Below are positions 21,674-44,157 of a stretch of DNA of 44,219 nucleotides, one piece after another (positions within the stretch are counted from its first letter, which is position 1; every line of letters begins with the position of its first letter). This DNA comes from an uncultured Paracoccaceae bacterium (GTDB lineage Bacteria > Pseudomonadota > Alphaproteobacteria > Rhodobacterales > Rhodobacteraceae). The position numbers and the translations under genes were made by a program. Where the stretch lies: positions 1-44,219 of the forward strand of contig CANMPL010000015.1 of the NCBI GenBank assembly GCA_947499715.1, in the 5' to 3' direction. The notes under the pieces were generated by a model. It was not told where the DNA came from. It did not search any database and saw nothing but the letters and a program-made list of their open reading frames with translations.

Positions 21674-21782
21674 GCCCTTTGACTTTGCGCGGATCTTAAC
21701 GGCGATCTTAGCCTTTCGTTTACTTTATTGGCTTTGTCCCTCAAACTAGATCTAGCGGGTTAAGGGTGGGTTGGATCAAGAT

Positions 21783-27700: not shown

Positions 27701-30134
27701 CCGTGATCTGATTGGCGCGGACGGTTCGCAGTTTATGCCATCTTCGCCGGGTTCGGACCGGTTCATCTCGGGGGGAGAGGGGTCGGACACGTATTCTTAT
27801 GTTGTCGGTGACGGCAATGACCGTATTTTGGATGGCGGTTCCGGGTCCGGTGACATCATTGATGTGACGGGCTTCACTTCCACCGACTTTGCGCTTGCTG
27901 GGCCTCATTCGATCCGCTTCGACCCGGCCTTCAGCGGTGATGTTCAGCTTTTCATCGACGCCAATAACACGCTCGACATTCTGGCGATGGCGGACTTTGA
28001 ACAGATTCAGTTTGCCGATGTCACATTTGACAATGACGCTGACGATCTGGACGGCGCGACGAACTTTGAAGCCTTCATCGCCTCACTTGTGGCCGAGGCC
28101 GTGGCGGCGGACCCGAATGAAGATGTGATCACCAAGGTTGCCGTCGCGGACCCGGGTGGAAACAACACATTCACGTCGACTGCGGCCAACGAACATTTCG
28201 CCCTGGATAACAGCAGTGACGATCAATTGATCTTCAACGTTGGCCAGATTGGTGATGACAGTGTGACAAAGACAATCGCGACAACAGGCGGTTATGACAT
28301 TACAATCGATTTCAGCGGGATTGTGGCCGACAACGTCTTGCAGCAGGACGTTATCCTGAGGGCAAGTGAGGTTAATTCCGAAGATGTCATTATCGACATC
28401 ATTTACGAAGACACGGCGTTCATAGACCCCGTGCAGGGGATCGGCCGCGTCGAGGAAACGATCACCCTTATCGGTGCCCTGGCGCAATTTTCCGGCGTGG
28501 ATTCGATTACGATTATCGACAATTCCGGTTCGACCAGTGGCTTTGCTTCGACAACTGAAGTGCAGCAGTTCTTGGTCGATCAACAGGTCACGAGCGGTGA
28601 TGATATCATCGCAGGATATGTCGGGTCTTTGACCCTGCGCGGGGGCGGCGGACACGACATATTGGTCGGTAACCGTGGCGGTGACACCTATGAATATGGC
28701 AGCAGTGATGGAAACGTCGTCATTGCGGAAGGGTCCTTCACGAGCGGAACCGATGTCTTGCGCGTTCTGGACTATGCGCTAGCTGATGCCAGCCTGTCCC
28801 GGTCACCGATCGATCCTGACGACCTTGTGCTTGATTTTGGCGGCGGAGATGTTCTGACAATCCGCGACTTTGGTCAGACATTTCGGCTGGAACAGATCGT
28901 GTTTAACGCAGATTCAGCGATACCGGAGAGCTCAACCTTCGCCGAGGTATCGTCGGCTTATCTTTCGCAGCAACGCTCTACTGGGGACGACATTCTGATC
29001 GGAATGGCCGCGTTGAACGAAACGCTTGAGGGGGGGCTGGGGAACGATCTGTTGGATGGTGGCGAAGGCTCTGACACCTATATTGTGCGTCGGGGCGAGG
29101 GCGACCATGAGATCCGGGACACCGGGATCGGGGACACCGATGCGATCTTTTTCGATGTGACCTCCACCTCTGTGACATTCGTTCAGGATCGTATTGATCC
29201 GGCGGATTTTCATATCGTTATGGATGATGGCACCGCGATCAAGGTGGTCAATTTTGCCAATGGCGGGATCGAACAATTCGTATTTACCGATGCGACGCTT
29301 TCGGCGGAAGACGCCCGCACGCAGGCTTACGACGATATTGCCACGACAGGCGATGACCTGATCATTGGCGGTGATGCGGTCGACAATTTGCGCGGCGGTC
29401 TTGGTGACGATGTGGTCTCGGGCGGGAGTGGCGCGGATGTCTTCCACTACGTTTTTGGTGACGGTGACGACACTCTGTTGGCTAATGCCAGCGCAAGTCG
29501 TTTTGAGCTTATCCAGATTTCCGGTGTGAGCCTTTTGGATCTTCGGGTTGAATCTGTGCCGGGCTCGCGCGATTTGGCCAACGGCACGCCGTCCAATGAT
29601 CAGGATATGTTGATCAGCTTTGCCAGCGGGGCAGGGTCAATCCTGGTGCAAAACGGCCTTTCCGCCAACGACAGCACGGTTTTGGTCCGGTTGGACGACG
29701 ACGGCACGATGCTGACAACCGCAGAACTGACGCTGATGGCGCTTGAAGCTGATATCGCGGCCGGACGCACCATTCTGGAGGGACCGGCCACGGGTGGCAC
29801 GGTATTTGGCAATGGGGCCACATTTATCCTAAGCGATCAAGGCGATGACACGTTTGCATTTGCGGCAGGCGACGGCACGCTGACGATCCTTGATGATGCG
29901 CCACAATCGGGGACCAACCGGCTCGAAATTACCGGCTACAGCTCTACTGATGCGACACTTGACCGTCTCGCCGCCGGATCAGAAGATTTCGTGATCCGCC
30001 TGCCAAATGGTGATCAGATCGTGGCACTGGGCGACTTTGATGCCAACCCGATCAATGGCGTGAACGAGATCTTCTTTGCCGGTGATGGTGTAACGCTGGA
30101 CGACGCGGCGATAACCACGGTGCTGGATGGCTAG
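21783..30134 (+). CDS. Giant RTX-type secreted adhesin/surface protein
   Basis: A protein of about 2783 residues without a signal peptide, as expected for type I secretion. The start is ATG 21783; TTG 21771 is also possible. In order it has: eight N-terminal repeats of about 49 residues ending in DDGR-like motifs (about 25-393); a VCBS domain (395-500, ending TITGANDAPV); cadherin-like domains (500-700); seven PD40/TolB-like motifs of the SISADG type spaced about 60 residues apart (723-1136), enough for a closed seven-bladed propeller; VCBS/cadherin domains (1140-1335); an Ig-like domain (SGLRIDSATGIISGTP, about 1380); and about ten RTX-type calcium-binding modules (1440-2773) built on GGxGxDxYxY and GDGxD. 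No type I secretion genes are in the window. The role is probably adhesion, biofilm or surface coat. Confidence 0.9.
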   Translation: MTTVTINDPSDLHPWFQRVVTRDTDGFLLSQQITYDDGRIQFVSYSAGSVVSRTWTDPSDQWGWTSRSLTFDAVSGYKTTQTLTRDDGSDVTTTFVDSKVSTRSTQDSGNVQSWSSKLDTFDASGRIASTTTRFDDGRLSSIGYQDGVLASRTDTDALDAFNWSTKVFSYDANGRVVDVTTTRDDGVVVVTTPAAGPASSTVVRTDTADVFNWNEIRISYDASGDIAQRVVVNDDGQESTTQYVNGQRSQTTLLDLNDVDGLTSRVTTYLADGRVAAVTTTYDDGRVADKSFGNGVAATLTITDHGDNYVWGTCTTTFGVDGVISQQQQTFDDGRVQVTDFAAGLRDHAIWSDPLNAYGWSSIQQTFGSNGALLFSEFAFDDGRLAFRDARGQDIVGGQISGGVTEDSAATLETSGSLSINATFQGNQSFVAQDGTAGSNGHGTFFLLANGDWRYEADNSQGAIDALPAGATLTDSFVALTPDGVAQTVTVTITGANDAPVVAPLMATTDETQTAFDIALLASASDVDTGDMLSVENLAEDATNFGGFTLSGATLTYDASAFEGLAAGESQIINFTYDVVDTNGGRTANALELTVEGRDPAFEAADDDFSTDEDTSFSGDVSTNDEPNGGVYSVVSGPDGDLTLNADGSFDYEPGAFFAGLADGDTATDSFTYQIDTGSDVTQATVTIEISGLNDGPTQVAPRVVDVRLVTEDQTETQGGNGHSLAPSISADGDSISYDSSASDLISGDTNARTDVYVEDASETNSRANVQNGTNAQTITDGASGAALSADGGVVVFQSRASDLVPMDGDGDPVPNNNRIDIYVRDVVSGGTALLIQDGVDGQRLDGNSQNASVSADGRFVVFQSNATNLVTAVDDNSSGGSSLDDIFLHDRQTGETVMISQDVGTVEAAAAFNPSISADGKTVVFLTANSFDVADTNGLVDIYAYDVALGGLTLVSQSTGGVVGNQDAISFTGGQAVSTPSVSANGRFVTWVSRADNLVAGDTNNSDDVFVHDLETGETSRVSVSSTGVEGDGASFDAQISDNGRFVAFESQATNLDGVTPDTNGANDIFVHDRLTGETIRVSVTPDLANEPAGSQPDISADGSHVVFSSATVAANFDDRVTTGNVSDIYVAEIDTSGFALTANAAQLLIDLRNDWTDVDGGDLDFANITVTTDDPTLGRAITFTEVVDGAGNVTGITLDPAQFVSLGQYDTELLSVSYDVSDGIDTVSGVSGVAVNGVNDAPVGVDGTFDVNQGTTLNGSFMATDADGDALNFANLSTGLSGSLTVLENGSFSYTAGAGQTVGDVVSIGVFDDAGGITTLTATFDVNVAPTFTAPAAVQVALTQEIDPNAANAIDISAFFDDAAGSSLTYDAVIAGQSALPSGLRIDSATGIISGTPTTNEVVRIAVTATDAGGLATTGAFWLGIVDGTLTGGATAEVLTDDGFSRLVDGQAGNDSLFGGDQADIFVHRLGDGLDIIDETGLSDTDHLVLVGYASTDVVFERLSANPFEQKGLDLLIRPAAGDFDFSQGVIVRNGLGTEGSTRRISEYHFDDGVTLTDTEVRALILAGETTSGMDDIRGFGGADTLDGGAGDDVLRGGDGSDLYIYEAGNGHDTIRETGRLDTDIVQIGYDIGDASFAQGAGSDDLLIDFGGGDALTLINTINGSVVDGIETLRFADGDLSMADVRNILTEQQATSGDDVVIGFDRSETLDGKAGNDTLVGGDGADTYVYRAGGGDDVVLDQGAGDYDNLTVFDFTIDYDHVDGVINPGSQVTFARSADVEAHFVTDDLVVLLDDGAGATGQVTLIDALTGDPQNGIEGLIFDASGVTLTMAQVRSDLIAQQQTAGDDLVYGFSTGDTIVGGTGNDTLTGRDGLDIYVFSAGDGHDVVADMGNGDNDRVQFTDRNLADFTITYGLGDDKTIIFEAGSDRIEVIGALGGGTLNNIAFFDFADQTLTELEMRQHVVDQALTQGRDLIGADGSQFMPSSPGSDRFISGGEGSDTYSYVVGDGNDRILDGGSGSGDIIDVTGFTSTDFALAGPHSIRFDPAFSGDVQLFIDANNTLDILAMADFEQIQFADVTFDNDADDLDGATNFEAFIASLVAEAVAADPNEDVITKVAVADPGGNNTFTSTAANEHFALDNSSDDQLIFNVGQIGDDSVTKTIATTGGYDITIDFSGIVADNVLQQDVILRASEVNSEDVIIDIIYEDTAFIDPVQGIGRVEETITLIGALAQFSGVDSITIIDNSGSTSGFASTTEVQQFLVDQQVTSGDDIIAGYVGSLTLRGGGGHDILVGNRGGDTYEYGSSDGNVVIAEGSFTSGTDVLRVLDYALADASLSRSPIDPDDLVLDFGGGDVLTIRDFGQTFRLEQIVFNADSAIPESSTFAEVSSAYLSQQRSTGDDILIGMAALNETLEGGLGNDLLDGGEGSDTYIVRRGEGDHEIRDTGIGDTDAIFFDVTSTSVTFVQDRIDPADFHIVMDDGTAIKVVNFANGGIEQFVFTDATLSAEDARTQAYDDIATTGDDLIIGGDAVDNLRGGLGDDVVSGGSGADVFHYVFGDGDDTLLANASASRFELIQISGVSLLDLRVESVPGSRDLANGTPSNDQDMLISFASGAGSILVQNGLSANDSTVLVRLDDDGTMLTTAELTLMALEADIAAGRTILEGPATGGTVFGNGATFILSDQGDDTFAFAAGDGTLTILDDAPQSGTNRLEITGYSSTDATLDRLAAGSEDFVIRLPNGDQIVALGDFDANPINGVNEIFFAGDGVTLDDAAITTVLDG

Positions 30135-34137: not shown

Positions 34138-35202
34138 TTAGTTCAGGTCTTTGGCGTAGTCAGCGGCCAATGCGCCTTCGGCTTCGGCCACGGCTGCGAT
34201 CAGCGCGTCGAGGATCTCTTCGCCACCGTCAACATTGCCACGGAACCAGTCCTGCACGGGGGCAGCGGCTTCGGCGAATGCGGCTTTCTCTTCTGGGGTT
34301 GGGACATAGAGGTCACCACCGCCAGCGACGAAAGCTTCATAGGCTTCGATCGACTTGCGCTTGGGCGAGGCGAAGGTCGCCTGCTGCAGCTGGCTAAAGC
34401 CATCGACGACGACTTTGCGCAGGTCTTCTGGCATCGCCATGAAGTTGGCATTCGACATCCACCACAGCGCACCCATGTAGGCGTGGCCATCAAGGGTGAC
34501 ATACTGCAGGCCCGCATCAGGGAACTTCATGCCCATGATATCGGTGATGCCGTTCTTGGAGCCTTCAACAACGCCGGTCTGGAAAGAGGTGAAAAGCTCT
34601 GGCCATGGGATCGGTGTCGGGGAGGCACCCAAGGCGCGGACCAACTCCTGCGGCAGGTCGGCGACCACGGTGCGGATCTTGAGACCTTCCATGTCCGATG
34701 GCATCGCCACACGACGCTGCGTGTTGGCAAAGTTGCGCCAGCCGCCGGTGTTACCGATAGTCATCAGGCGGATGCTGTCGTCAGACGTCGCCAGCGCCAT
34801 TTCGCGCATCTTGCGGGTGAAGTCGCCTGTCAGCACGGCCTCTGCCACGCGGTCGTCGGCCATCAGGTATGGCAGATCAAGCACCTGCACATAAGGGAAG
34901 ATGCCCGCCGCACCACCAGAGGTGGAGATGTAGACGTCGATGGAGCCTTCGGCCACACCTTCAAGGCATTCCGCGCCCGTCGCGCAAAGCTGCGTGCCGA
35001 TGAAAAGTTCCACGCCGATGCGCCCGTTAGAGGCGGCCTCAACGTAGTTTTTGAAGACGACCAGACCGTCATAGTCTTCGTCGTTTTCGTTCGAGTTTGC
35101 AGTCGCGCGGATCGTGAACTCTTGATGGCCGTCAGCCATCGCAGTTGACGCGCCGGCAAGCAGCGTGGCGGCAAGTGCGCCTTTGAGTAGACCTTTGAGC
35201 AT
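34138..35202 (-). CDS. dctP: TRAP transporter solute-binding protein (DctP family)
   Basis: A 354-residue periplasmic binding protein. The signal peptide ends in STAMADG (about residue 24). The family pattern is present: the FIGTQLC region, SIDVYISTSGGAAG, MEGLKIRTV with the conserved Arg that pairs with a carboxylate or other anion, and the GVVEGSKNGITDIMGMKF region. It delivers an acidic solute to the DctQM permease encoded upstream in the same operon. Its enzyme neighbours suggest an organosulfonate such as sulfoquinovose or its glyceryl glycoside, an inference from context. Confidence 0.92.
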   Translation of the reverse strand: MLKGLLKGALAATLLAGASTAMADGHQEFTIRATANSNENDEDYDGLVVFKNYVEAASNGRIGVELFIGTQLCATGAECLEGVAEGSIDVYISTSGGAAGIFPYVQVLDLPYLMADDRVAEAVLTGDFTRKMREMALATSDDSIRLMTIGNTGGWRNFANTQRRVAMPSDMEGLKIRTVVADLPQELVRALGASPTPIPWPELFTSFQTGVVEGSKNGITDIMGMKFPDAGLQYVTLDGHAYMGALWWMSNANFMAMPEDLRKVVVDGFSQLQQATFASPKRKSIEAYEAFVAGGGDLYVPTPEEKAAFAEAAAPVQDWFRGNVDGGEEILDALIAAVAEAEGALAADYAKDLN

Positions 35203-35245
35203 TATTCTCTCCCTGTCATTGGTCGGTTATGGGAACACAGTCCCT

Positions 35246-36736
35246 TTATTGAACGAAGCCCGTCAAGCGCGGAATCGTCATGGAAATGGCTGGGACATAG
35301 GTGATCAGGAAGATCACGAATACCTCAACCGCGAGGAAGGGCAGGATTGCCTTGGCAATCGTCTCGACCTTTTCGCCCGAGACGGTACTCGCGACAAAAA
35401 GGACAAGGCCCATGGGCGGGGTCGCCAGACCAACCGTCAGGTTCACTGACATGATGATGGCAAAGTGGACGGGGTGGACGCCAAGGTCGACAAAGATCGG
35501 CCCCAGAATTGGCCCCAGGATGATGATCGCAGGCCCCGCATCAAGGAACATGCCCACGATGAACAGCAGGATGTTGATCAGGAACAGCAGGATCAGCGGG
35601 TTTTCGGACAGCGACAGGATGTAGTCTGACATGATCTGCGGCGCATAGGACAGCGACACAACGGTCTTGAAGCTGACCGCAGCGCCCACCAGCAGCAGGA
35701 CCGCCGAAGTCGACAGCGCGGATTTGGTCAGCACCTGCCACAGGTCTTTGCCGTTCATCGAGCGCAGCACAAAGAAGGACACGATCAGCGCATAAAAGAC
35801 CGCCATCGCCGAGGCCTCTGTCGGGGTCATGATACCCACAAGGATGCCGCCCAGAATGATGATCGGGGTTTGCAGCGGGGCCACGGCCTTTTTCGCGACC
35901 ATGCGGAAATCATGGCTGCACCGTTTGCGATATCCCATCAGGATAAAGTGTGCCGGGATCAGCATGATCAGCGTGGTCCAGCCCGCAGGGAGCGAGGTCT
36001 CTGCCCCGGTCAGGCGGATCACCAGTGCACCCAACGCATAAAGGATGAACGCGAGGTTGAGGCGCAGCAGCGCAAAGCTCACCCAATATTCCACCGGGCT
36101 GATTGTCTGGTTCTTGGTGACGATGCGTTCGGCCTTGGGCAGGTCATAGCGGTCGGCCAGAAGCCGGACCATGACCATCAGGCCGACACCCACCATGATC
36201 CCGGGCACGATGCCCGCAAGGAAGAGTGCAGCGACACTTTCGCCCATGACATAGGCGTAGATGATCATGATGCCCGAGGGCGGAATGATCGGGCCGATCA
36301 CCGAGGACGCGGCGGTAATCGCGGCGGCAAAACGGCGTGTATAGCCGTTCTTTTCCATCGCCGGGATCAGGGTTGACCCCAGCGCGGATGTATCCGCCAC
36401 AGCAGAGCCGGAAAGACCGGCGAAGAGAATCGAGGAGAGGATGTTGACGTGCGCCAATCCCCCCCTCAGGTGGCCCATGAAGGCTTGGGAGAATTCAACG
36501 AGGCGCACGGTGATGCCGCCCCGGTTCATGACTTCGCCTGCGAGCATAAAGAACGGCAGGGCCATCAGCGGAAAGCTGTCCATGCCGTTGTAAAGGTTGC
36601 GGTAAAGGCCTGCGACGACATTGCGGGTGTCGCCTTCGATCAGGATCAGCGCGATGGGGGATGCCAGCAGCGCAAAGACCACGGGCAGGCCGACCATGAT
36701 GAGGATCAAAAAGAGCGGAAGGAACCATAACAGCAT
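35246..36736 (-). CDS. dctM: TRAP transporter large permease (DctM family)
   Basis: A 496-residue inner-membrane protein with about twelve to thirteen helices, somewhat longer than the usual 430 residues because of an extra segment near residues 215-290. Typical DctM motifs are present, including FVLMALPFF-like MALPFFMLAGEVMNRGG, SVIGPIIPPSG and the C-terminal VNLTVGLATPPMGL. It uses the sodium gradient to import the solute delivered by DctP. Its ATG overlaps the DctQ stop (TGATG). Confidence 0.93.
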   Translation of the reverse strand: MLLWFLPLFLILIMVGLPVVFALLASPIALILIEGDTRNVVAGLYRNLYNGMDSFPLMALPFFMLAGEVMNRGGITVRLVEFSQAFMGHLRGGLAHVNILSSILFAGLSGSAVADTSALGSTLIPAMEKNGYTRRFAAAITAASSVIGPIIPPSGIMIIYAYVMGESVAALFLAGIVPGIMVGVGLMVMVRLLADRYDLPKAERIVTKNQTISPVEYWVSFALLRLNLAFILYALGALVIRLTGAETSLPAGWTTLIMLIPAHFILMGYRKRCSHDFRMVAKKAVAPLQTPIIILGGILVGIMTPTEASAMAVFYALIVSFFVLRSMNGKDLWQVLTKSALSTSAVLLLVGAAVSFKTVVSLSYAPQIMSDYILSLSENPLILLFLINILLFIVGMFLDAGPAIIILGPILGPIFVDLGVHPVHFAIIMSVNLTVGLATPPMGLVLFVASTVSGEKVETIAKAILPFLAVEVFVIFLITYVPAISMTIPRLTGFVQ

Positions 36737-37335
36737 CAGGAAGACCCCGCGATTTCTTCGTCAGAGGCAAAGGAGGTGAGGCGGTCGCCTTGCCCTCCCA
36801 GCGTGATGAGCTGACGAATGATAAGTTCGATGTTCACAAGGATCAGCAGGTTCACGCCAACCCAAAGGGCCGCGTATTGGAACCGGTTCTGGAATTTCTC
36901 GGCGCATTTGCCGACCTCGATGCCCAAGGGCCAGCGCAGGGTCGAGGAGCAGCCACGGCCCGAGAGCGTGTCGATATGGTTGTTCAGCCCGCGTTCCCAG
37001 AAGATGAACAGCACCCAAAGCGAGATCGCAAACAGCACCAGCGAAAGCAGGCCCGCAAGCAGGCGGGGCAGGGCGCGTTCGACCATGTCGATGGCGACAA
37101 AGCCGCCCATGCGATAGGCGATCGGGGCCATCAGGCCGGTCATCCAGAGCATCCCAAAGCGCGCGGCTTCTTCTGTCCAGTTCGGTGCATCGTTGAGCAC
37201 GTAGCGGAAGAAGACCTGCCCCAGAATAAAGCAAACCATGATCGCCAAAGCGAAGACCGATATGTAACGGCCAACAGCGAGAATCGCGGTGTTGAACCGT
37301 TCTAAGGGCCAAAGGACCCCAAACAGGACCGACAT
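36736..37335 (-). CDS. dctQ: TRAP transporter small permease (DctQ family)
   Basis: A predicted 199-residue membrane protein with four main helices and the typical RYVLNDAPNWTEEAARF motif after helix 2. ATG 37335 follows a strong site (AGGGGAGG). The longer in-frame reading to 37575 is only shadow of the flavin reductase gene. It stabilises the DctM permease and contacts DctP. Coupled to dctM by a one-base overlap. Confidence 0.92.
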   Translation of the reverse strand: MSVLFGVLWPLERFNTAILAVGRYISVFALAIMVCFILGQVFFRYVLNDAPNWTEEAARFGMLWMTGLMAPIAYRMGGFVAIDMVERALPRLLAGLLSLVLFAISLWVLFIFWERGLNNHIDTLSGRGCSSTLRWPLGIEVGKCAEKFQNRFQYAALWVGVNLLILVNIELIIRQLITLGGQGDRLTSFASDEEIAGSS

Positions 37336-37389
37336 TGCGGCTCCTCCCCTGTTATATGGTGACCGCTGTGCGGTCGCTTCATTTTTTGT

Positions 37390-37440
37390 TTGGGGGCCAG
37401 CCCCCAATCCCCCGGGATATTTTTGGCCAAAAGAAGGCCC
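37390..37440. repeat. Intergenic palindrome between flavin reductase and TRAP genes
   Basis: A near-perfect palindrome, TTGGGGGC-CA-GCCCCCAA (37390-37407), is followed by a GATATTTTTGGCCAAAAG segment (37416-37433). I recall this composite as a common intergenic element in Rhodobacterales. Inside this operon it may reduce read-through from the enzyme genes to the transporter genes. Confidence 0.55.
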
Positions 37441-37949
37441 TAGGGGGCGATATTGAACGTGCCGTATTTGCCCGCATGGAACACAAGCGGTTCGCCAACG
37501 GTGTGGTGTGCCTTGGTGACGCGGCCGACGATGATAACGTGATCGCCAGCGTCGTGGGTCGCTTCGAGATTGCATTCAAACGTGGCCAGCGCGCCTTCGA
37601 TAATCGGCATGCCGCAATGGCTCAGGTGGGTGGGCACATCCGCGATGGCGGTTTTTGATTTGACGATGGCCGCACAAATGTCGCGTTGGTCGGCGGCAAG
37701 GACATGCACGGCGAACCGGCGCGAACCGGCGAAATGTTCGAACCGTTTCGACGATTTCGCAGGTGACCAAAGCACCAAGGGCGGATCAAGCGAGACGGAG
37801 GCAAAGGAATTGGCGACAATCGCCACAGGGCCTTCGGGACTGTCGGTCGTGACGACCGTGACACCGGTGACAAAGGTGCCAAGGGCGCCGCGAAAGCTGC
37901 TGGCGTCGGTGGAAGGATCGAAGGTGGCGATTGTTCCGGCGTCCATCAT
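37440..37949 (-). CDS. Flavin reductase (FMN-binding split barrel)
   Basis: A 169-residue member of the flavin reductase domain family (DIM6/NTAB, SsuE-independent type). Diagnostic blocks are the N-terminal FRGALGTFVTGVTVVT, the FMN-binding VANSFASVSLDPPLVLW and the FAVHVLAADQ strand, with the conserved GKYG near the end. It would reduce FMN with NAD(P)H and supply FMNH2 to the SsuD-like monooxygenase two genes upstream. Its start overlaps the stop of the aldo/keto reductase gene by 4 bases. In the Smo pathway the matching protein is SmoA. Confidence 0.92.
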   Translation of the reverse strand: MMDAGTIATFDPSTDASSFRGALGTFVTGVTVVTTDSPEGPVAIVANSFASVSLDPPLVLWSPAKSSKRFEHFAGSRRFAVHVLAADQRDICAAIVKSKTAIADVPTHLSHCGMPIIEGALATFECNLEATHDAGDHVIIVGRVTKAHHTVGEPLVFHAGKYGTFNIAP

Positions 37950-38836
37950 GGTACCTCTTGGCCCAAGGCCGCTGTATAGATTTCATACCAGGTCTGGCGG
38001 TCCATATCGACTTTCAAAGCGTCCGATAAGGTGTTGATCCGGTTCATGTTATTGGTACCCATCACGGGCATGATATTGGCGGGATGCGCCAAGAGCCACG
38101 CCACCGCAACGGCGGCATTGTCGACGCCATGTTCTGCCCCGACAGCGGCCAGCGCATCCTGCACCGGGCCGATGCCTGTCATCAGGCTGCCGCCACCCAA
38201 GGGCGACCACGCCATGATCGGCTTGGCGCGTTCCTGCAGATAGGCCACGTCACCGTTGGTGAAGCCGTCATGCGCCGTGACGCTGAGTTCAATCTGATTG
38301 GTGGCAAGCTGGGTTTTCATCGCCGATTGCAGCAGCGTCCAGTCGTGCAGTTTGAAGTTGGACACGCCCACAGCGCCGACCTTGCCGGAGGCCACGACCT
38401 CATCCAGAACAGCGCCGGTTTCGAGGTGATCCATGAAGGGATCGGGGCGGTGGACCAGCAACATGTCGATGTGGTCGATGTTCATCAACCGCAAGGAGTG
38501 ATCGACGGACGACCGGATATAGTCGGCCGATGTATCGTAGTACTTCACCCGCGCATCGGCGTAGCGGCCTGCCGGGGCCACGATATCGCATTTGGTCACG
38601 ATCTGGATCTGGTCGCGCAACGCGGGGGCGGCTTTCAGGGCCGCGCCAAAGACTTCTTCGGCCTCGTAGCCGCCATAGATATCGGCCTGATCCATGGTGG
38701 TGATACCCTGTGCCAGACAAGCCTCGACCTTGGCCTGCACATGGGCAGGAGAGGTATTGTCAGCCTCTGCCAGTCGCCACATACCATAAACGATGCGGCT
38801 GAAGTCGAGGGTCGGTGTGATTTGGACGCGATCCAT
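37946..38836 (-). CDS. Aldo/keto reductase (possible 6-oxo-glucose reductase)
   Basis: A 296-residue NAD(P)H-dependent reductase with the classical tetrad: Asp49, Tyr54, Lys82 and His129 (MLLVHRPDP). The YdhF-like pattern VGVSNF and IELSVTAHDGF is present. It lies directly after the monooxygenase gene (ATG one base past the TAA) and before the flavin reductase (ATGA overlap). By the Smo model, it would reduce the aldehyde left after desulfonation (6-oxo-glucose) to the free sugar, as SmoB does. Another short-lived aldehyde product is possible. Confidence 0.9.
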   Translation of the reverse strand: MDRVQITPTLDFSRIVYGMWRLAEADNTSPAHVQAKVEACLAQGITTMDQADIYGGYEAEEVFGAALKAAPALRDQIQIVTKCDIVAPAGRYADARVKYYDTSADYIRSSVDHSLRLMNIDHIDMLLVHRPDPFMDHLETGAVLDEVVASGKVGAVGVSNFKLHDWTLLQSAMKTQLATNQIELSVTAHDGFTNGDVAYLQERAKPIMAWSPLGGGSLMTGIGPVQDALAAVGAEHGVDNAAVAVAWLLAHPANIMPVMGTNNMNRINTLSDALKVDMDRQTWYEIYTAALGQEVP

Positions 38837-38837
38837 A

Positions 38838-39998
38838 TTAGCGGCGTTCTCCTGTGCCTAAGGGCGTGGCAGGTGTGTCGGCTGGCACACGGCCATAGGC
38901 GTGTGGTAGCGAGCAGGTTTTCAGTTCAGGCATCACGCGGGCACCAAAGTGTTTTGCTTCGTCGATGTGCGGATAGCCTGAAAAGATGAAAGCACGGATG
39001 CCCATCTTCTTGTAACCCTCAATCTTTGTCAGGATCTGATCGGTGGACCCGACAAGGGCCGCACCGCAACCAGACCGTGCGCGCCCGACACCAGTCCAAA
39101 GGCCGGGTTCGGTATAGCCGAATTTGTCTGCCAGTTCGCGCGCGCGGGCCTGGTGGGCGACGCCAAGGCTGATGCTGTCATGGGCGCGGTCGCGGATCAG
39201 CTTGCCATATTCGTCATCAAGCTTTGAAGCGATGTAATCGGCGTATTCCTTCGCCTCTTGTTCGGTATCGCGCACGATCATGTGGACGCGCAGCCCGTAA
39301 TCAAGGGTGCGGCCATGGGCCTGGGCGCGCGCATGCACGTCCTTCATCCGCTGTGCCAGCTGGTCCTGCGTTTCGGGCCACATCAGATAGACGTCGCATT
39401 GCGCACCACAGAGTTCCAGCGCCGCAGGTGAATAGCCGCCAAAGTAAAGCAGCGGCCCGCCGTTTTGCTGGTAGGGTCGCGCCGGATCAGTCGGCACATT
39501 CGCGAATTGATAAACCTCACCATCGTGGTTGATTTCATCGCGCGTCCAGGCCTGACGCAGAATTTCAACGACCTCATGGCTCCGCTTGTAGCGATATGCG
39601 CTATCGGCGACCTCTCCGGGGAAATCGCTGCTGATGACATTCAGGGTCAGGCGCCCCTTGAGCATGTGATCAAGTGTGGCCACGGTGCGGGCCAGCATTA
39701 TCGGCTGCATCTCTCCGCAGCGGATCGCGGCGAGGAAATTGATCTTTTCGGTCAGCGGCGCCATGCCTGCGACAAAGGACAGGGTGTCCTGGCCCACCTG
39801 AAAAGAAGAGGGCGCAAGGATATTGCGAAACCCCTGCTGTTCAGCGGTCAGTGCGATGTCGCGGCAATGGTCCCAGGACGACCGCAGATCGCCATCGGGC
39901 ACGCCAAGGAATTGGTAGTCATCCGAGCAAAGGGCCGAAAACCATGACACCTCTGCCGCGTCGAGGTCAGCGCTTGTGACCGGGACAACTTGTTCCAT
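38838..39998 (-). CDS. FMNH2-dependent monooxygenase, SsuD-like (possible sulfoquinovose monooxygenase)
   Basis: A 386-residue luciferase-like monooxygenase clearly in the alkanesulfonate monooxygenase branch. ATG 39998 follows GGGGGA. Residues matching the SsuD active site are kept at a constant offset of 11: Arg237 and His239 (LRVH), Arg308 (GRARSG) and Tyr342 (SGYPH), which correspond to Arg226, His228, Arg297 and Tyr331 of E. coli SsuD. The Cys54 loop is replaced (LAPSSFQVGQ), so substrate choice may differ. With FMNH2 and O2 it would release sulfite and an aldehyde. It heads the operon with an aldehyde reductase, a flavin reductase and a TRAP importer. Confidence 0.93.
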   Translation of the reverse strand: MEQVVPVTSADLDAAEVSWFSALCSDDYQFLGVPDGDLRSSWDHCRDIALTAEQQGFRNILAPSSFQVGQDTLSFVAGMAPLTEKINFLAAIRCGEMQPIMLARTVATLDHMLKGRLTLNVISSDFPGEVADSAYRYKRSHEVVEILRQAWTRDEINHDGEVYQFANVPTDPARPYQQNGGPLLYFGGYSPAALELCGAQCDVYLMWPETQDQLAQRMKDVHARAQAHGRTLDYGLRVHMIVRDTEQEAKEYADYIASKLDDEYGKLIRDRAHDSISLGVAHQARARELADKFGYTEPGLWTGVGRARSGCGAALVGSTDQILTKIEGYKKMGIRAFIFSGYPHIDEAKHFGARVMPELKTCSLPHAYGRVPADTPATPLGTGERR

Positions 39999-40051
39999 GA
40001 TTTCCCCCAAAAGAATCTGTTCTTGGGACTTGCGTAGCACGGGCTTTTGAG

Positions 40052-40069
40052 TGAAACAATAGTGTATCA
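40052..40069. promoter_or_regulatory. Candidate GntR operator palindrome
   Basis: TGAAACA-ATAG-TGTATCA is an 18-base inverted repeat with 6 of 7 paired positions. It lies in the 99-base divergent region between the monooxygenase and the GntR gene, 30 bases before the regulator ATG. It is a natural site for control of both transcripts. Confidence 0.55.
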
Positions 40070-40097
40070 ATTTGCGCAGGTCGGGGAGGGCCGCGTT

Positions 40098-40805
40098 ATG
40101 GCCACCGCATCTGCACTGCCGAAATATGTCGCTGTCAGCGAGATGTTGATCCGCGAGATTGCCGCCGGACATCTGCCGGATGGTGCGCGCTTGCCGCCCG
40201 AAAGGGATATGGCGGCAGAGTTGGGGATTTCGGTCGGCACCCTGCGCAAATCATTGGCTGATCTGGAATCCAAGGGCATGTTGGACCGGGTTCAGGGGTC
40301 TGGCAACTACGTGCGCCATAACCCCGGTGTCAAGAGCGTTTATGCCTTCTTTCGGTTGGAAAAAGTGCGCGGTGGCGGGTTGCCGACGGCGGATGTACTG
40401 TCGGTGGATCGGTTGAACAAACCCAAGGACGCGCCCGGGTTTGGCCCCGATACCGCAGGTCACCGGATCCGGCGTTTGCGCCGTCTTGACGGTGATCTGA
40501 TGGCCTTGGAGGAAATCTGGCTGGACGGATCCCTGCGCGACCAGATCACGACGGGGGATCTGTCAGATTCCCTTTATGAGTTTTACCGCGACGAATTGGG
40601 CGTGGTGATCGCCAGCGTTGAAGACCGGATCGGGGTCGCCCAACTGCCGCGCTGGACGCCAAAGGCGTTTCACCTGCGCGCCGGTTTTGCCGTTGGCTAT
40701 ATCGAGCGGATCAGCTGGGCATCGGATGGCACGCCGGTCGAATTCTCCCGGACATGGTTTGATAACAACAAGGCGCGCTATGTGTCGCGTATGGGAAAAG
40801 GGTAG
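40098..40805 (+). CDS. GntR-family regulator, HutC/UTRA subfamily
   Basis: A predicted 235-residue regulator. ATG 40098 follows GGGAGG by 8 bases; an upstream in-frame TTG at 40047 would place the operator inside the coding region. The N-terminal winged helix shows the GntR signature (LPPERDMAAELGISVGTLRKSL, split by residues about 35-58) and the C-terminal domain is of UTRA type (HRIRRLRRLDGDLMALEEIWLDG pattern), which binds a small sugar-like effector. It is divergent from the monooxygenase/TRAP operon and probably represses both until the inducer is present. Confidence 0.92.
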   Translation: MATASALPKYVAVSEMLIREIAAGHLPDGARLPPERDMAAELGISVGTLRKSLADLESKGMLDRVQGSGNYVRHNPGVKSVYAFFRLEKVRGGGLPTADVLSVDRLNKPKDAPGFGPDTAGHRIRRLRRLDGDLMALEEIWLDGSLRDQITTGDLSDSLYEFYRDELGVVIASVEDRIGVAQLPRWTPKAFHLRAGFAVGYIERISWASDGTPVEFSRTWFDNNKARYVSRMGKG

Positions 40806-40811
40806 ATCGGA

Positions 40812-41900
40812 ATGGATATGGTCAACTACGGCCTGATCGGCTGTGGCATGATGGGGCGCGAGCACATCCAGAACATCAAATTGCTGCCACATGGGCGCGT
40901 CAGCATTGTCTATGACCCGGTTGCGGATCTGGCGGCCTCAGCGGCGACTTTGGCCGGTGATGCGGTTGTTGCGGATAGCATTGACGCGCTGATGGATCAC
41001 CCCGAACTGGACGCGGTGGTGATTGTCAGCCCAAACTTTCTGCACGTCGATCAGCTGCACCAGATTGCTGCAAAAAGGACCCTGCCGATCCTGTGTGAAA
41101 AGCCGCTCTATACGGACCCCGCGGACGCCAGCAAAATTGCGGATTTTGCGCGCGAATATGCCGCTCCGGTTTGGGTCGCGATGGAATATCGCTATATGCC
41201 GCCGGTGCAGGCGCTGATCAATCAGGTCGAAAATGCCACCGGCGGGATATCGATGTTGACGGTGCGCGAACACCGCTTTCCGTTTCTGCCCAAGATTGGC
41301 GATTGGAACCGGTTCAACGCCAATACCGGCGGCACGCTGGTGGAGAAGTGCTGCCACTTCTTTGACCTGATGCGGCTGATCCTGAAGGCAGAGCCGGTGC
41401 GCGTGATGGCGTCAGCGGGGCAAACCTTGAACCACAAGGATGAAGACTATGGCGGACGCGTGCCGGACATCTGGGACAATGGCTATGTCATTCTGGATTT
41501 CGACAATGGCGCACGGGCGATGCTGGAACTTTGCATGTTCGCCGAAGGATCGAAGTATCAAGAAGAGATTTCAGCCGTAGGTCCAAAGGGCAAGATCGAG
41601 GCATTGGTGCCGGGGCCGGGGCGGTTCTGGCCGAAACTCTTGGGGCCTGCGCCTGTGCCGCAACTGGTGATCAGCCCGCGCGCACCAAAGGGACCAATCG
41701 TCAGCGAGGTGCCGGTGGATCCTACGTTGCTGGAGGCTGGCGATCACAATGGATCGACCTTTTATCAGCACCAGCGCTTTAACGCGGTGATCCGGGGCGA
41801 AGGCGCGGTAGAAGTCACGCTGGACGATGGCGCACGTGCCGTGGCGATGGGGCTTGCCGCACAGAAAAGCGCTGAAACCGGGCAGGCCGTTTTGATCTAG
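40812..41900 (+). CDS. Gfo/Idh/MocA family protein (oxidoreductase or NAD+-dependent glycosidase)
   Basis: A 362-residue protein. The dinucleotide motif is GCGMMG (10-15), the family lysine is in CEKP (Lys97), and the catalytic-type His182 with Asp185 occurs in GGTLVEKCCHFFD. The C-terminal domain has the usual large beta sheet. Most members oxidise sugars or inositols, but the GH4/GH109/GH188 types use NAD+ for retaining or inverting glycoside cleavage. Next to a probable sulfoquinovose pathway, a GH188-like sulfoquinovosidase is a serious possibility. It starts 6 bases after the GntR stop and is co-transcribed with it. Confidence 0.9.
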   Translation: MDMVNYGLIGCGMMGREHIQNIKLLPHGRVSIVYDPVADLAASAATLAGDAVVADSIDALMDHPELDAVVIVSPNFLHVDQLHQIAAKRTLPILCEKPLYTDPADASKIADFAREYAAPVWVAMEYRYMPPVQALINQVENATGGISMLTVREHRFPFLPKIGDWNRFNANTGGTLVEKCCHFFDLMRLILKAEPVRVMASAGQTLNHKDEDYGGRVPDIWDNGYVILDFDNGARAMLELCMFAEGSKYQEEISAVGPKGKIEALVPGPGRFWPKLLGPAPVPQLVISPRAPKGPIVSEVPVDPTLLEAGDHNGSTFYQHQRFNAVIRGEGAVEVTLDDGARAVAMGLAAQKSAETGQAVLI

Positions 41901-41944: not shown

Positions 41945-43147
41945 TTACGTTTTCACAAAGGCTGCGCTGACCTCTTCCAAAATCTGCATGAAGGCAGATT
42001 GCGCCGCTGTTGGCCGCCAGTTCTTGCGGGTTGTCACACCGATCCGCCGGGGCCTGTCGCCAATATCAATCGTGAGCCGTGCGATGGCTCCGGCATCGAC
42101 AAATTCTTGCGCCTGCGTCACCGACAGGAGCGCCAGCATGTGATTGCCAGCCAGCATATGGCGCGCGGTATCCATTGAGTTGGTTTCAACCGCCGGGCCG
42201 TGCGTTGTAGGCGGCAGCCCGTCAAACAGCGCATTGAAATGCAGCCGGGTCTGGGTCGGACCGCGCGCCACAACCCAGGGGTAGCGGGCAAGCGCTGTCA
42301 GGTTGTGCCTGTCGGCTGCAAGGGCCGGGTGCTGTGGGCCGCAAAAGATACCCAATCTGTCGTCAAACAGGTGATGCTGCCTGACATCCGGTGCCGGATC
42401 GGGATCGCGCAGGGACCCCAGCATCATATCAACGTCGCCTTGGCGCAAGGCTGCAATCAGCGCGGCATAGGCGTTATCAGTGACCGCGACATTCAGGTCA
42501 GGGTGGCGGGCGCGCAGCAGGCTGATCGCCCGTGGCAGTAAGGTGCCGCGCGACAGAGGCAGGCTTGCGATGCGCAGGACCGTGCGCCCGGTGCCATCCA
42601 GCGCCCGAATATCCTCTGCCGCGGCATCAATTTCCACAAACGCCAGCGATGCCGCCTGATTAAGCGTCCGCGCCGCCGGGCGCAGCGTGATGCCACGTTC
42701 GGATTTGCCAAAGAGCGGTGTTTCGCACAGCGCCTCAAGCTCTTTTGCTGCGCGATAAAGCGAGGGCTGCGTGACGCCTTTGGCGCGGGCGGCGGCGGCA
42801 AAGCTGTGGTGCCGGGCCACGCCGATCAGCGCGAGCAGTTGCCGGGTTGTGACAGCACGGGCCCGTTGCTCGCCCAGGATCGGACGCCCACGCAGGGTGG
42901 CATTGGTCAGGAAATCAAATGCTCGCGTCCCGCGTTGGTAAAGGCAATGTCCGGCCTCTGTCGGGAACAGCCCGGCCCGACTGCGAGTAAAAAGCGTGGC
43001 GCCAAATCCCCGCTCTAGCCCCGAAATCGCCTGTGTTATTGCAGGTTGCGACAGATGCACCTGTGACGCGGCGGCGGTAATGCCCCGCTTTTCATAGACT
43101 TGCAGAAACACCCGCAAGTGTTTGAGGTTGTATTTTGCCTGCGCCAT
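41945..43147 (-). CDS. LysR-family regulator with two tandem HTH domains
   Basis: A predicted 400-residue regulator, about 100 longer than a normal LysR protein. Residues 7-66 form a standard LysR winged helix (AAASQVHLSQPAITQAIS). After a linker, residues 100-160 form a second one (AAAARAKGVTQPSLYRAAKELE), and the effector-binding domain follows from about 190. ATG 43147 was chosen over the extension to 43330, which only shadows the divergent gene. It is divergent from the beta-keto acid cleavage enzyme and probably controls it. Confidence 0.9.
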   Translation of the reverse strand: MAQAKYNLKHLRVFLQVYEKRGITAAASQVHLSQPAITQAISGLERGFGATLFTRSRAGLFPTEAGHCLYQRGTRAFDFLTNATLRGRPILGEQRARAVTTRQLLALIGVARHHSFAAAARAKGVTQPSLYRAAKELEALCETPLFGKSERGITLRPAARTLNQAASLAFVEIDAAAEDIRALDGTGRTVLRIASLPLSRGTLLPRAISLLRARHPDLNVAVTDNAYAALIAALRQGDVDMMLGSLRDPDPAPDVRQHHLFDDRLGIFCGPQHPALAADRHNLTALARYPWVVARGPTQTRLHFNALFDGLPPTTHGPAVETNSMDTARHMLAGNHMLALLSVTQAQEFVDAGAIARLTIDIGDRPRRIGVTTRKNWRPTAAQSAFMQILEEVSAAFVKT

Positions 43148-43317
43148 CTTGGCACAGCCAATACCTTTTTTGAATGAATATTGCCAGCTTTGAAATTGCA
43201 ATCCTGCCGCCATCGCCGCAGGATCGCCGCAGCGCGTGGAATCGCACCAGATCCACGCAGGCCAGAAGGGCCGCGCCCCATTGCGTGACCCAAATGTCGG
43301 GGAGGGGCACCAGCACC

Positions 43318-44157
43318 ATGACAAAACCATGCATCATCTGCGTCGCGATCACAGGATCTTTGCCGCGCAAATCGGACAATCCGGCGGTGCCCATCTCCAT
43401 CTCTGAACAGATCGAAAGCACTCATGCGGCGTTCGAGGCCGGTGCAAGCATCCTGCACGCCCATGTGCGCAACGCCGATGAAACGCCAACCAGCGACCCC
43501 GACAAGTTCGCAGCCCTCAAAGAAGGCGTCGAAAAGCATTGTCCGGGCATGATTATTCAGCTTTCCACCGGCGGGCGATCCGGTGCCGGCCTGACCCGCG
43601 GCGGGATGCTGCCGCTGCGCCCCGACATGGCGTCCTTGTCGGTGGGGTCCAACAACTTTCCTACGCGGGTCTATGAAAACCCGCCTGATCTGGTGGATTG
43701 GCTTGCCTCTGAAATGGTGACCTATGACGTGAAGCCAGAGATTGAAGCCTTTGACCTGAGCCATATCCTGAAAGCCAAATCCATGGCCGACAAAGGCGAA
43801 ATCAAGGGCACGCCCTACATTCAATTCGTCATGGGCGTGCAAAACGCCATGCCCGCTGATCGTGATGTCTTTGATTTCTATATCAAAACCGTTGAACGGC
43901 TTTTCGGGGCGGATGCCCCATGGTGTGCGGCGGGGATTGGGCGCAATCAGATCGTGTTGAACGATTGGGCCATCGGCGCGGGCGGTCATGCGCGCACCGG
44001 TCTGGAAGACAACGTGCGGCTGGACAAGAACACGCTTGCCCCCTCAAACGCGGCCCTTGTCGCGCGCACCGCCGAGATTTGTGAAAAATACGAACGCCCC
44101 GTCGCGACATGGCAAGACGCCCGCGCGATTCTGGGGCTCAGAGAGGTAACGCGATGA
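43318..44157 (+). CDS. Beta-keto acid cleavage enzyme (BKACE, DUF849)
   Basis: A predicted 279-residue TIM-barrel enzyme. ATG 43318 follows GGGGAGGGG. The zinc ligands His47, His49 (LHAHVRN) and Glu230 match His46, His48 and Glu230 of Kce, and Arg226 and Asp231, also used in catalysis there, are at the same numbers. These enzymes convert a beta-keto acid plus acetyl-CoA into acetoacetate and a new CoA ester. The actual beta-keto acid cannot be told; dehydrocarnitine and 3-keto-5-aminohexanoate are known family substrates. The next gene (CoA-transferase) could activate the acetoacetate produced. Confidence 0.92.
   Translation: MTKPCIICVAITGSLPRKSDNPAVPISISEQIESTHAAFEAGASILHAHVRNADETPTSDPDKFAALKEGVEKHCPGMIIQLSTGGRSGAGLTRGGMLPLRPDMASLSVGSNNFPTRVYENPPDLVDWLASEMVTYDVKPEIEAFDLSHILKAKSMADKGEIKGTPYIQFVMGVQNAMPADRDVFDFYIKTVERLFGADAPWCAAGIGRNQIVLNDWAIGAGGHARTGLEDNVRLDKNTLAPSNAALVARTAEICEKYERPVATWQDARAILGLREVTR

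Follow-up and report, generated by a model that had tools for sequence, protein, structure and literature searches.

How does sulfoquinovose (SQ) enter a bacterium that is equipped to desulfonate it in the cytoplasm? The question is raised by a locus in a stretch of 44,219 nucleotides (the window) from an uncultured Paracoccaceae bacterium (assembly GCA_947499715.1, contig CANMPL010000015.1), where the genes of a sulfoquinovose monooxygenase (sulfo-SMO) pathway share an operon with a tripartite ATP-independent periplasmic (TRAP) transporter. SQ is an abundant sugar of plants and algae, and its production is put at about 10 billion tons a year (PMC10755693). Taxa with the sulfo-SMO pathway are reported as dominant in an aquatic stable-isotope study, and a 10-gene cluster of Vibrio mediterranei AbY-1905 is reported to rise more than 20-fold during growth on SQ (PMC13372026). 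The pathway, also termed sulfo-ASMO, was identified in Agrobacterium tumefaciens with the proteins SmoA, SmoB and SmoC, and a Novosphingobium version is known as SquD/F (PMC12890257). A 2025 paper names ATP-binding cassette (ABC) transporters for SQ uptake (PMC12421959). The analysis reported here indicates that the window very probably carries a complete operon pair for the uptake and desulfonation of SQ and sulfoquinovosyl glycerol (SQGro), in which the TRAP transporter would feed the sulfo-SMO pathway.

Organisation of the locus

The six genes smoC, smoB, smoA, dctQ, dctM and dctP (34138-39998) all have intact reading frames and are read as one leftward operon because of their intergenic spacing, which is +1, -4, +104, -1 and +43 bases along the series. 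The gene of a GntR/UTRA regulator diverges from this operon and is followed 6 bases downstream, in the same direction, by a gene for a GH188 sulfoquinovosidase (Table 1). An earlier note, made from the letters of the window, had described an operon of monooxygenase, aldo/keto reductase, flavin reductase and full TRAP transporter under a divergent UTRA-type GntR regulator, and all seven genes stand intact where it placed them. Its interval of 34138-40805 has the contents as described but stops short of the GH188 gene at 40812-41900.

Table 1 Features of the sulfoquinovose locus (positions in the window)
Feature	Position	Strand	Size and basis
smoC/squD, FMNH2-dependent sulfoquinovose monooxygenase, LLM family	38838..39998	-	386 aa; PF00296
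smoB/squF, aldo/keto reductase, 6-oxo-glucose to glucose	37946..38836	-	296 aa; PF00248
smoA, NAD(P)H:FMN reductase	37440..37949	-	169 aa; PF01613
dctQ, TRAP small permease	36736..37335	-	199 aa; PF04290
dctM, TRAP large permease	35246..36736	-	496 aa; PF06808
dctP, TRAP solute-binding protein, proposed SQ/SQ-glycerol receptor	34138..35202	-	354 aa; PF03480
GntR/UTRA (HutC-type) regulator	40098..40805	+	235 aa; PF00392 + PF07702
GH188 NAD+-dependent sulfoquinovosidase, sqgA-like	40812..41900	+	362 aa; PDB matches, kept contacts
22-bp element AATTGATACACTATTGTTTCAC, proposed GntR operator, between smoC and GntR	40051..40072	-	conservation

The TRAP set is complete, with binding protein, small permease and large permease in one operon (PF03480, PF04290 and PF06808). 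DctM scores 399.5 bits against TIGR00786 (cut-off 268), and DctQ, whose start is placed at ATG 37335 (199 aa) within a longer open reading frame (ORF) of 36736-37575, is 90-91% identical to its counterparts in the related loci L001 and L006 across all 199 aa. SmoC starts at ATG 39998, giving 386 aa, and the regulator most likely at ATG 40098 in preference to TTG 40047, because the element at 40051-40072 would otherwise fall within the gene. A promoter scan returned 1 site against 2.9 expected, and terminator-like sites number 15 against 6.5 expected.

Relatives were surveyed through SmoC, and all counts given below out of 80 loci refer to the best 80 of at least 584 genome-contig stretches encoding SmoC relatives, several of them on short contigs. 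The earlier note had proposed looking for the same gene set in other Rhodobacterales. The order recurs there, and in Rhizobiaceae as well, in dozens of loci, so that the arrangement is not due to chance.

The desulfonation enzymes

Searched against PDB chains with phmmer, SmoC gives 756 bits to 7olf and 732 bits to 7oh2, both of which we take to be SmoC structures, followed by 201 bits to 7jv3 (presumably MsuD) and 190 bits to 1nqk (SsuD). The PDB molecule names read 'Methanesulfonate sulfonatase' for 7olf and 'Alkanesulfonate monooxygenase' for 7oh2, and the best NCBIfam match is the SsuD model TIGR03565, yet at 243 bits it misses the cut-off of 518. The protein is 84% identical to that encoded in the Agrobacterium loci L044 and L046. 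The earlier note had placed the active-site residues at a constant offset of 11 from SsuD; with SmoC numbered from ATG 39998, this holds for Arg226, His228, Arg297 and Tyr331 and fails at Cys54, which aligns with a Gly. The same note had named a grouping of the monooxygenase with methanesulfonate enzymes as a finding that would speak against the Smo reading; judged by scores, it does not group with them.

SmoB, whose gene adjoins smoC, scores 423 bits against 7bby and 7bbz, presumably SmoB structures, with 7twz (204 bits) and YdhF (203 bits) next, and is 64% identical to the Agrobacterium L044 protein. The smoA gene overlaps smoB by 4 bases, and its product reached no NCBIfam model at that model's cut-off. 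The suggestion that monooxygenase, flavin reductase and aldo/keto reductase form the Smo core is supported by the scores to 7olf and 7oh2, the 84% identity to Agrobacterium and the neighbouring SmoB, SmoA and GH188 genes. Genomes with SmoB and SmoC have been counted as positive for sulfo-SMO (PMC13372026). As an observation on its own, SmoA identity is at least 64% in 30 of the 75 loci with a match and below 64% in the other 45, while SmoC stays at or above 83% in 80/80; because of this split, SmoA appears to have been replaced by another flavin reductase in one lineage.

The GH188 sulfoquinovosidase

The GH188 protein matches 8zn9 at 508 bits, 8qc3 at 372 and 8qc2 at 367, and the next family follows with 4hkt at only 67 bits. 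The entries 8qc2 and 8qc3 are taken here to be SqgA structures, an identity that is supported for 8qc3 because the published residue numbers fit its chain at a constant shift of 13. All eight SQ contacts of ArSqgA that were checked from the published list (PMC10755693) are kept in the window protein, with Lys97, Tyr126, Arg155, Leu159, Lys161, Glu178, His182 and His312 corresponding to ArSqgA Lys107, Tyr136, Arg166, Leu170, Lys172, Glu189, His193 and His321. The published Glu163 has no Glu at its place in the 8qc3 numbering; the residue after it is a Glu, which is kept as Glu153.

A search of the genome with PF01055 gave no match to a GH31 sulfoquinovosidase, the same search being positive in six of 14 control genomes, and the GH188 protein is therefore likely to be the SQ glycosidase here. 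Inspection by eye showed no export signal. Since the enzyme also needs NAD+, the importer should carry the SQ glycoside as well as SQ, which predicts a roomy pocket in DctP. GH188 is described as near-universal in the sulfo-SMO clusters of the Roseobacter clade (PMC10755693), so that GH188 and the sulfo-SMO enzymes in this clade are already published and the window locus is one member.

Importer types among SmoC loci

The neighbourhood of SmoC holds GntR in 80/80 loci, SmoB in 77, SmoA in 75 and GH188 in 73. A TRAP transporter is present in 53/80 and an ABC solute-binding protein without TRAP in 13/80, while neither was found in 14/80, some of which may hold other importers and three of which end at a contig edge. 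Loci were labelled ABC by tblastn, the queries being four binding proteins together with permeases and an ATPase taken from four loci; L118 received the label from an ABC-type ATPase read by eye. Of the 53 TRAP loci 52 also have GH188, and L070, the one without, is truncated by its contig end. Six loci of the Agrobacterium type lack GH188 as well, and five of these bear the ABC label. In a SmoC tree of 89 rows, three of which carry no importer label (L005, L017 and L046), at least seven exchanges between ABC and TRAP are required.

The earlier note had seen the TRAP importer as a distinct version in a marine bacterium. Distinct it is, but among the best 80 loci it is the commoner version, and because it occurs in 53 of them and in Rhizobiaceae too, it is special neither to the window bacterium nor to the sea. 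Plasmid annotations show this arrangement in Ruegeria sp. TM1040 (on its megaplasmid), Rhizobium sp. SL42, Roseicitreum, Roseivivax and Paracoccus seriniphilus, and the importer genes carry generic TRAP/DctP names in such records. Marinovum algicola has an ABC set instead, and in Qingshengfaniella the SmoC and TRAP genes are not accompanied by annotated genes for SmoB, SmoA or GH188.

Two further arrangements were seen in the survey. The loci L062, L074 and L079 combine SmoC, GntR, GH188 and an ABC binding protein and gave no SmoB or SmoA match within the flanks examined. On a Spirosoma oryzicola plasmid (L125, 6198-12408), a 52% SmoC relative lies by genes for an amidohydrolase, an amino acid permease, a cytochrome c and a sulfite dehydrogenase, and perhaps acts on a different sulfonate.

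One DctP clade with several enzyme partners

Ten of 13 DctP matches in plasmid records are at least 70% identical, and all ten records hold SmoC too. Among 385 alphaproteobacterial genomes, DctP occurs at 79% identity or more in 11 (the next match being at 49%), SmoC at E<=1e-120 in 9 and both in 8, a co-occurrence with a Fisher p of 1.3e-13 when the window's own genome is counted. The three genomes with this DctP but no SmoC at E<=1e-120, represented by the loci L091, L094 and L095, encode it at 81-85% identity over the whole protein. Their TRAP genes are instead neighboured by those for a DeoR regulator, a PfkB kinase, a LacD-type aldolase, an SftI-like isomerase and GH188 (51-52%), and further by an aldose 1-epimerase and a succinate-semialdehyde-type dehydrogenase. 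By resemblance this is the make-up of the sulfoglycolytic Embden-Meyerhof-Parnas (sulfo-EMP) pathway, an assignment made by family tests on L091 and by reading the corresponding genes in L094 and L095. The gammaproteobacterial-side locus L111, from the same phylum and another class, has DctP at 68-71% together with GH188 (55%), GntR (43%), SmoB (53%) and a TauD-family protein that scores 535 bits to 9yut, a set that would fit the sulfoquinovose dioxygenase (sulfo-SDO) pathway.

More distant TRAP transporters keep similar company. In L084, L105 and L106 they are about 40% identical and lie beside a YihS-like protein, a class II aldolase and a kinase; the sulfolactaldehyde-reductase model (cut-off 348) is passed in L084 (509 bits) and L105 (485 bits), and the reductase gene of L106 is 84% identical to that of L084. 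L108, whose TRAP is likewise about 40% identical, encodes an aldo/keto reductase, a TauD-family protein and a match of 981 bits to PRK10426 (cut-off 553), which is named alpha-glucosidase in the library and which we take to be YihQ. The sulfo-EMP-type set recurs, together with GH188, in L110, whose DctP is 50-52% identical.

A DctP tree was built for 82 loci and the window as a quick tree with SH-aLRT (approximate likelihood-ratio test) support only, in which long outer branches meet. It leaves out four of the 53 TRAP loci (L019, L021, L031 and L061), in which DctP is truncated, and the row pairs L002/L090 and L006/L116 are identical in sequence. The tree contains a 69-row clade with an SH-aLRT of 100, made up of 63 SMO rows, the three sulfo-EMP-type rows nested within, L111, and L092 and L097, in whose genomes SmoC sits on another contig. 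Judged from gene content, the clade is SQ-linked throughout, and since the enzyme sets have changed (SMO, sulfo-EMP type, TauD type) while the importer stayed, SQ would be the common factor.

Eight further rows at 37-50% identity, termed 'other', were not counted as SQ-linked; L083 and L100 are among them and group with L110. Three candidates were considered as SQ cases and rejected. L100 was dropped as its GH31 protein is nearest to alpha-xylosidase, below the cut-off; L109, considered for the sulfoglycolytic Entner-Doudoroff (sulfo-ED) pathway, was dropped as its dehydratase exceeds the cut-off of the L-arabinonate dehydratase model (937 against 882 bits); and L102 was kept as 'other' since, despite its genes for a PfkB kinase and a LacD-type aldolase, its DctP lies far out at 38-41%. 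A separate observation concerns L105 (6480-18465), where a hybrid sulfo-EMP-type set is continued beyond dctP by an aldo/keto-reductase-like ORF, read by eye, and a TauD-family gene, a layout in which a single TRAP importer would seem to serve two SQ pathways.

The predicted ligand site of DctP

The AlphaFold model of DctP has a mean pLDDT (predicted local distance difference test score) of 77, falling below 50 at residues 1-25 and 208-229. A Foldseek search with it returned 230 PDB chains at E<=0.001, with the isethionate-binding protein IseP, apo and isethionate-bound, at ranks 1 and 2, the two proteins being about 25% identical. In IseP the sulfonate is contacted by Arg156, Arg177, Asn217, Ser95, Asn98 and Tyr153 above Trp200 (PMC11668362), and in the alignment DctP shares Arg156, Arg177, Asn217 and Trp200 with identical numbering. 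These four residues are invariant in 69/69 SQ-linked rows. The Arg pair is reported to bind carboxylates in other members of the family (PMC11668362) and is a general family feature, which fits an anion without naming which. Arg32, Thr70 and Pro184 are invariant in the 69 core rows and found in none of the 14 outside rows; a Cys73/Cys79 pair is common to the core, five gammaproteobacterial SQ rows, L110 and four 'other' rows. Binding of a sulfonated sugar by DctP is thus inferred from genomic context and is compatible with the anion-binding residues.

A shared element upstream of smoC

Alignment of the regions upstream of smoC from 79 loci and the window revealed a conserved block, AATTGATACAcTATTGaTNNAC. 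The element occurs with at most three mismatches and at most 160 bases upstream of smoC in 79/80 loci, 46 of them exact, and L041 has an exact copy 165 bases upstream, so that it is present in 80/80. In the 4.0 Mb genome of the window, 40051-40072 is the only site with zero mismatches, and one other place matches with three. A second copy (two mismatches) is present in five Agrobacterium-type loci, on the opposite strand some 950 bases upstream, where it lies between the GntR and ABC genes, and L111 has three copies (two to three mismatches), placed before SmoB-TRAP and before the TauD-type gene. No copy was found at up to four mismatches in the sulfo-EMP-type loci L091, L094 and L095, in line with their DeoR regulator. 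Because the element occurs in both TRAP and ABC loci, and always with a GntR gene, which lies beside smoC in all 80, it is likely to be the GntR operator.

Proposed working and alternative readings

In the proposed scheme, periplasmic SQ or SQGro is bound by DctP, whose Arg156, Arg177 and Asn217 would grip the sulfonate, and is passed on to the DctQM permease, which would be ion-driven as TRAP permeases are. In the cytoplasm GH188 would free SQ from its glycoside via transient oxidation by NAD+ at C3, SmoA would supply FMNH2 to SmoC, SmoC would split the C-S bond with O2 to give sulfite and 6-oxo-glucose, and SmoB would reduce the latter to glucose. Both transcripts are probably repressed by the GntR/UTRA protein, acting at the 22-bp element that lies between smoC and the regulator gene. 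The chemistry of GH188 and of the SMO enzymes is taken from published work on relatives; the ligand of DctP, the ion coupling, the repression and its inducer are what we infer. Beyond the window, the clade of DctP probably marks a dedicated sulfosugar TRAP family, that is, a pathway-independent uptake module for SQ and SQ-glycerol that serves sulfo-SMO, sulfo-EMP-type and TauD-type (sulfo-SDO-like) sets with sulfoquinovosidases of both GH188 and GH31, alternates with ABC importers, shares one operator with GntR over part of its range and would form a main, ion-driven route of SQ uptake in marine Alphaproteobacteria and some Gammaproteobacteria.

Several observations weigh against these proposals. 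Asn217 falls within the low-confidence stretch 208-229 of the DctP model, and only three of the six IseP contacts are identical, Ser95 being replaced conservatively by Thr94, Asn98 by Gly97 and Tyr153 by Gly153. The Arg pair is also found in 8/8 'other' rows and Asn217 in 7/8, so that the Arg/Arg/Asn triad does not name the ligand. TRAP was found in no more than 53/80 SmoC loci, and as 27/80 are without a match, the sulfo-SMO pathway does not need TRAP as such. Identity between SmoA and the flavin reductase of the Agrobacterium loci L044 and L046 reaches only 48-50%. Neither a sulfite exporter nor a sulfite dehydrogenase was found within the operon, and the genome has one PF00174 protein; among relatives a PF03601 gene often follows (15/80 loci by clustering, the family being confirmed in two) and is annotated as a sulfate exporter in some plasmid loci. 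The SQ identity of the sulfo-EMP-type sets is drawn from family resemblance, with the SftI-like isomerase of L091 at 252 bits (cut-off 700) and the YihS-like protein of L084 nearest to D-mannose isomerase at 500 bits (cut-off 600). Near the TRAP genes of L092 no SQ enzyme of the window was matched, and in the genomes G310 and G193 DctP and SmoC lie on different contigs.

It could be argued that the enzymes form a true SQ pathway while the TRAP transporter imports another sulfonate or acid, such as isethionate, 2,3-dihydroxypropane-1-sulfonate (DHPS), sulfolactate or a hexuronate, and SQ enters via a transporter elsewhere. Isethionate and DHPS TRAP systems are listed for Ruegeria pomeroyi (PMC9038784), the best Foldseek match is the isethionate binder IseP, and 14/80 SmoC loci have neither TRAP nor the ABC binding proteins searched for. 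However, no isethionate, DHPS or hexuronate breakdown gene was recognised among the families of the operon, the DctP clade swaps its enzyme partners with SQ remaining as the shared substrate, and the fixation of Arg32, Thr70 and Pro184 sets the core rows apart from all those outside, which together make another ligand unlikely. That the operon serves a different but related sulfosugar in place of SQ, such as sulfofucose or some other sulfonated glycoside, is still less to be expected: sulfofucose catabolism exists in Paracoccus, but its clusters are described as using different enzymes and ABC transporter systems (PMC12421959), and the characterised GH188 enzymes act on SQ glycosides (PMC10755693), so that the probability of this reading is very small.

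Equally improbable is a role in sulfur scavenging, with the monooxygenase acting as an SsuD/MsuD-type sulfonatase on alkanesulfonates or methanesulfonate in general. Its best NCBIfam model, the four catalytic residues shared with SsuD and the molecule names of 7olf and 7oh2 point in that direction, yet the TIGR03565 score is less than half the cut-off, 7olf and 7oh2 outscore MsuD and SsuD by about 530-565 bits, and the linked SmoB and GH188 suit a sugar sulfonate; the reading was rejected on the scores. Uptake of SQ and SQGro by the TRAP transporter for the sulfo-SMO pathway therefore stays the preferred interpretation.

Other genes in the window

Downstream of the GH188 gene, a LysR-type ORF (41945-43330, minus strand) has an unusual layout of two HTH_1 stretches followed by one substrate domain, and the doubling may be partly due to upstream extension of the ORF; its best model is PcaQ, below the cut-off. 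It adjoins a gene for a BKACE-family protein (43174-44157, plus strand) that scores 493 bits against a 3-oxoadipate:acetyl-CoA acetyltransferase model (cut-off 350). Elsewhere, a 2787-aa ORF (21771-30134, plus strand) with bacterial cadherin, Ig-like and RTX calcium-binding repeats is probably a secreted adhesin-like protein.

Relation to known systems and significance

The window locus is like the sulfo-SMO loci of Agrobacterium and Novosphingobium in its monooxygenase, flavin reductase, aldo/keto reductase and neighbouring GntR gene (PMC12890257), and it has the same element upstream of smoC as the Agrobacterium loci. It departs from the Agrobacterium-type loci in having TRAP and GH188; those loci lack GH188, and their ABC importer comes with a separate copy of the element. 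The presence of GH188 in the cluster is shared with the sulfo-SMO clusters of the Roseobacter clade (Kaur et al. 2023), for which an importer is not mentioned in the main sections of PMC10755693, although TRAP genes may stand in its figures or supplement. Import of an organosulfonate by TRAP is known from IseP (PMC11668362) and from the DHPS and isethionate systems of R. pomeroyi (PMC9038784), but DctP differs from IseP in its low identity and its Thr94, Gly97 and Gly153, and its proposed ligand is a C6 sulfosugar. The ABC-type systems for SQ uptake have the same role, the import of SQ for a cytoplasmic pathway, whereas they belong to an unrelated ATP-driven family (PMC11659671, PMC12421959).

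A description of a TRAP importer for SQ was not found in the literature searched by SQ and TRAP terms, a search that left figures, supplements and some key papers outside, and the main texts of PMC13372026 and PMC12890257 contain no word beginning with 'trap'. The importer is thus the less known part of the system, the enzyme pathway and GH188 being known for the clade. What is contributed here is the TRAP clade as a pathway-independent SQ uptake module together with the shared element, and the arrangement as such may already be drawn in print.

The passages on SQ uptake in PMC11659671 and PMC12421959 speak of ABC systems, and the import of SQ by marine degraders is not described there. The tie of one TRAP clade to more than one SQ pathway names DctP as the protein to test, and the DctP clade together with the 22-bp element would provide a marker for SQ uptake in genomes and metatranscriptomes.

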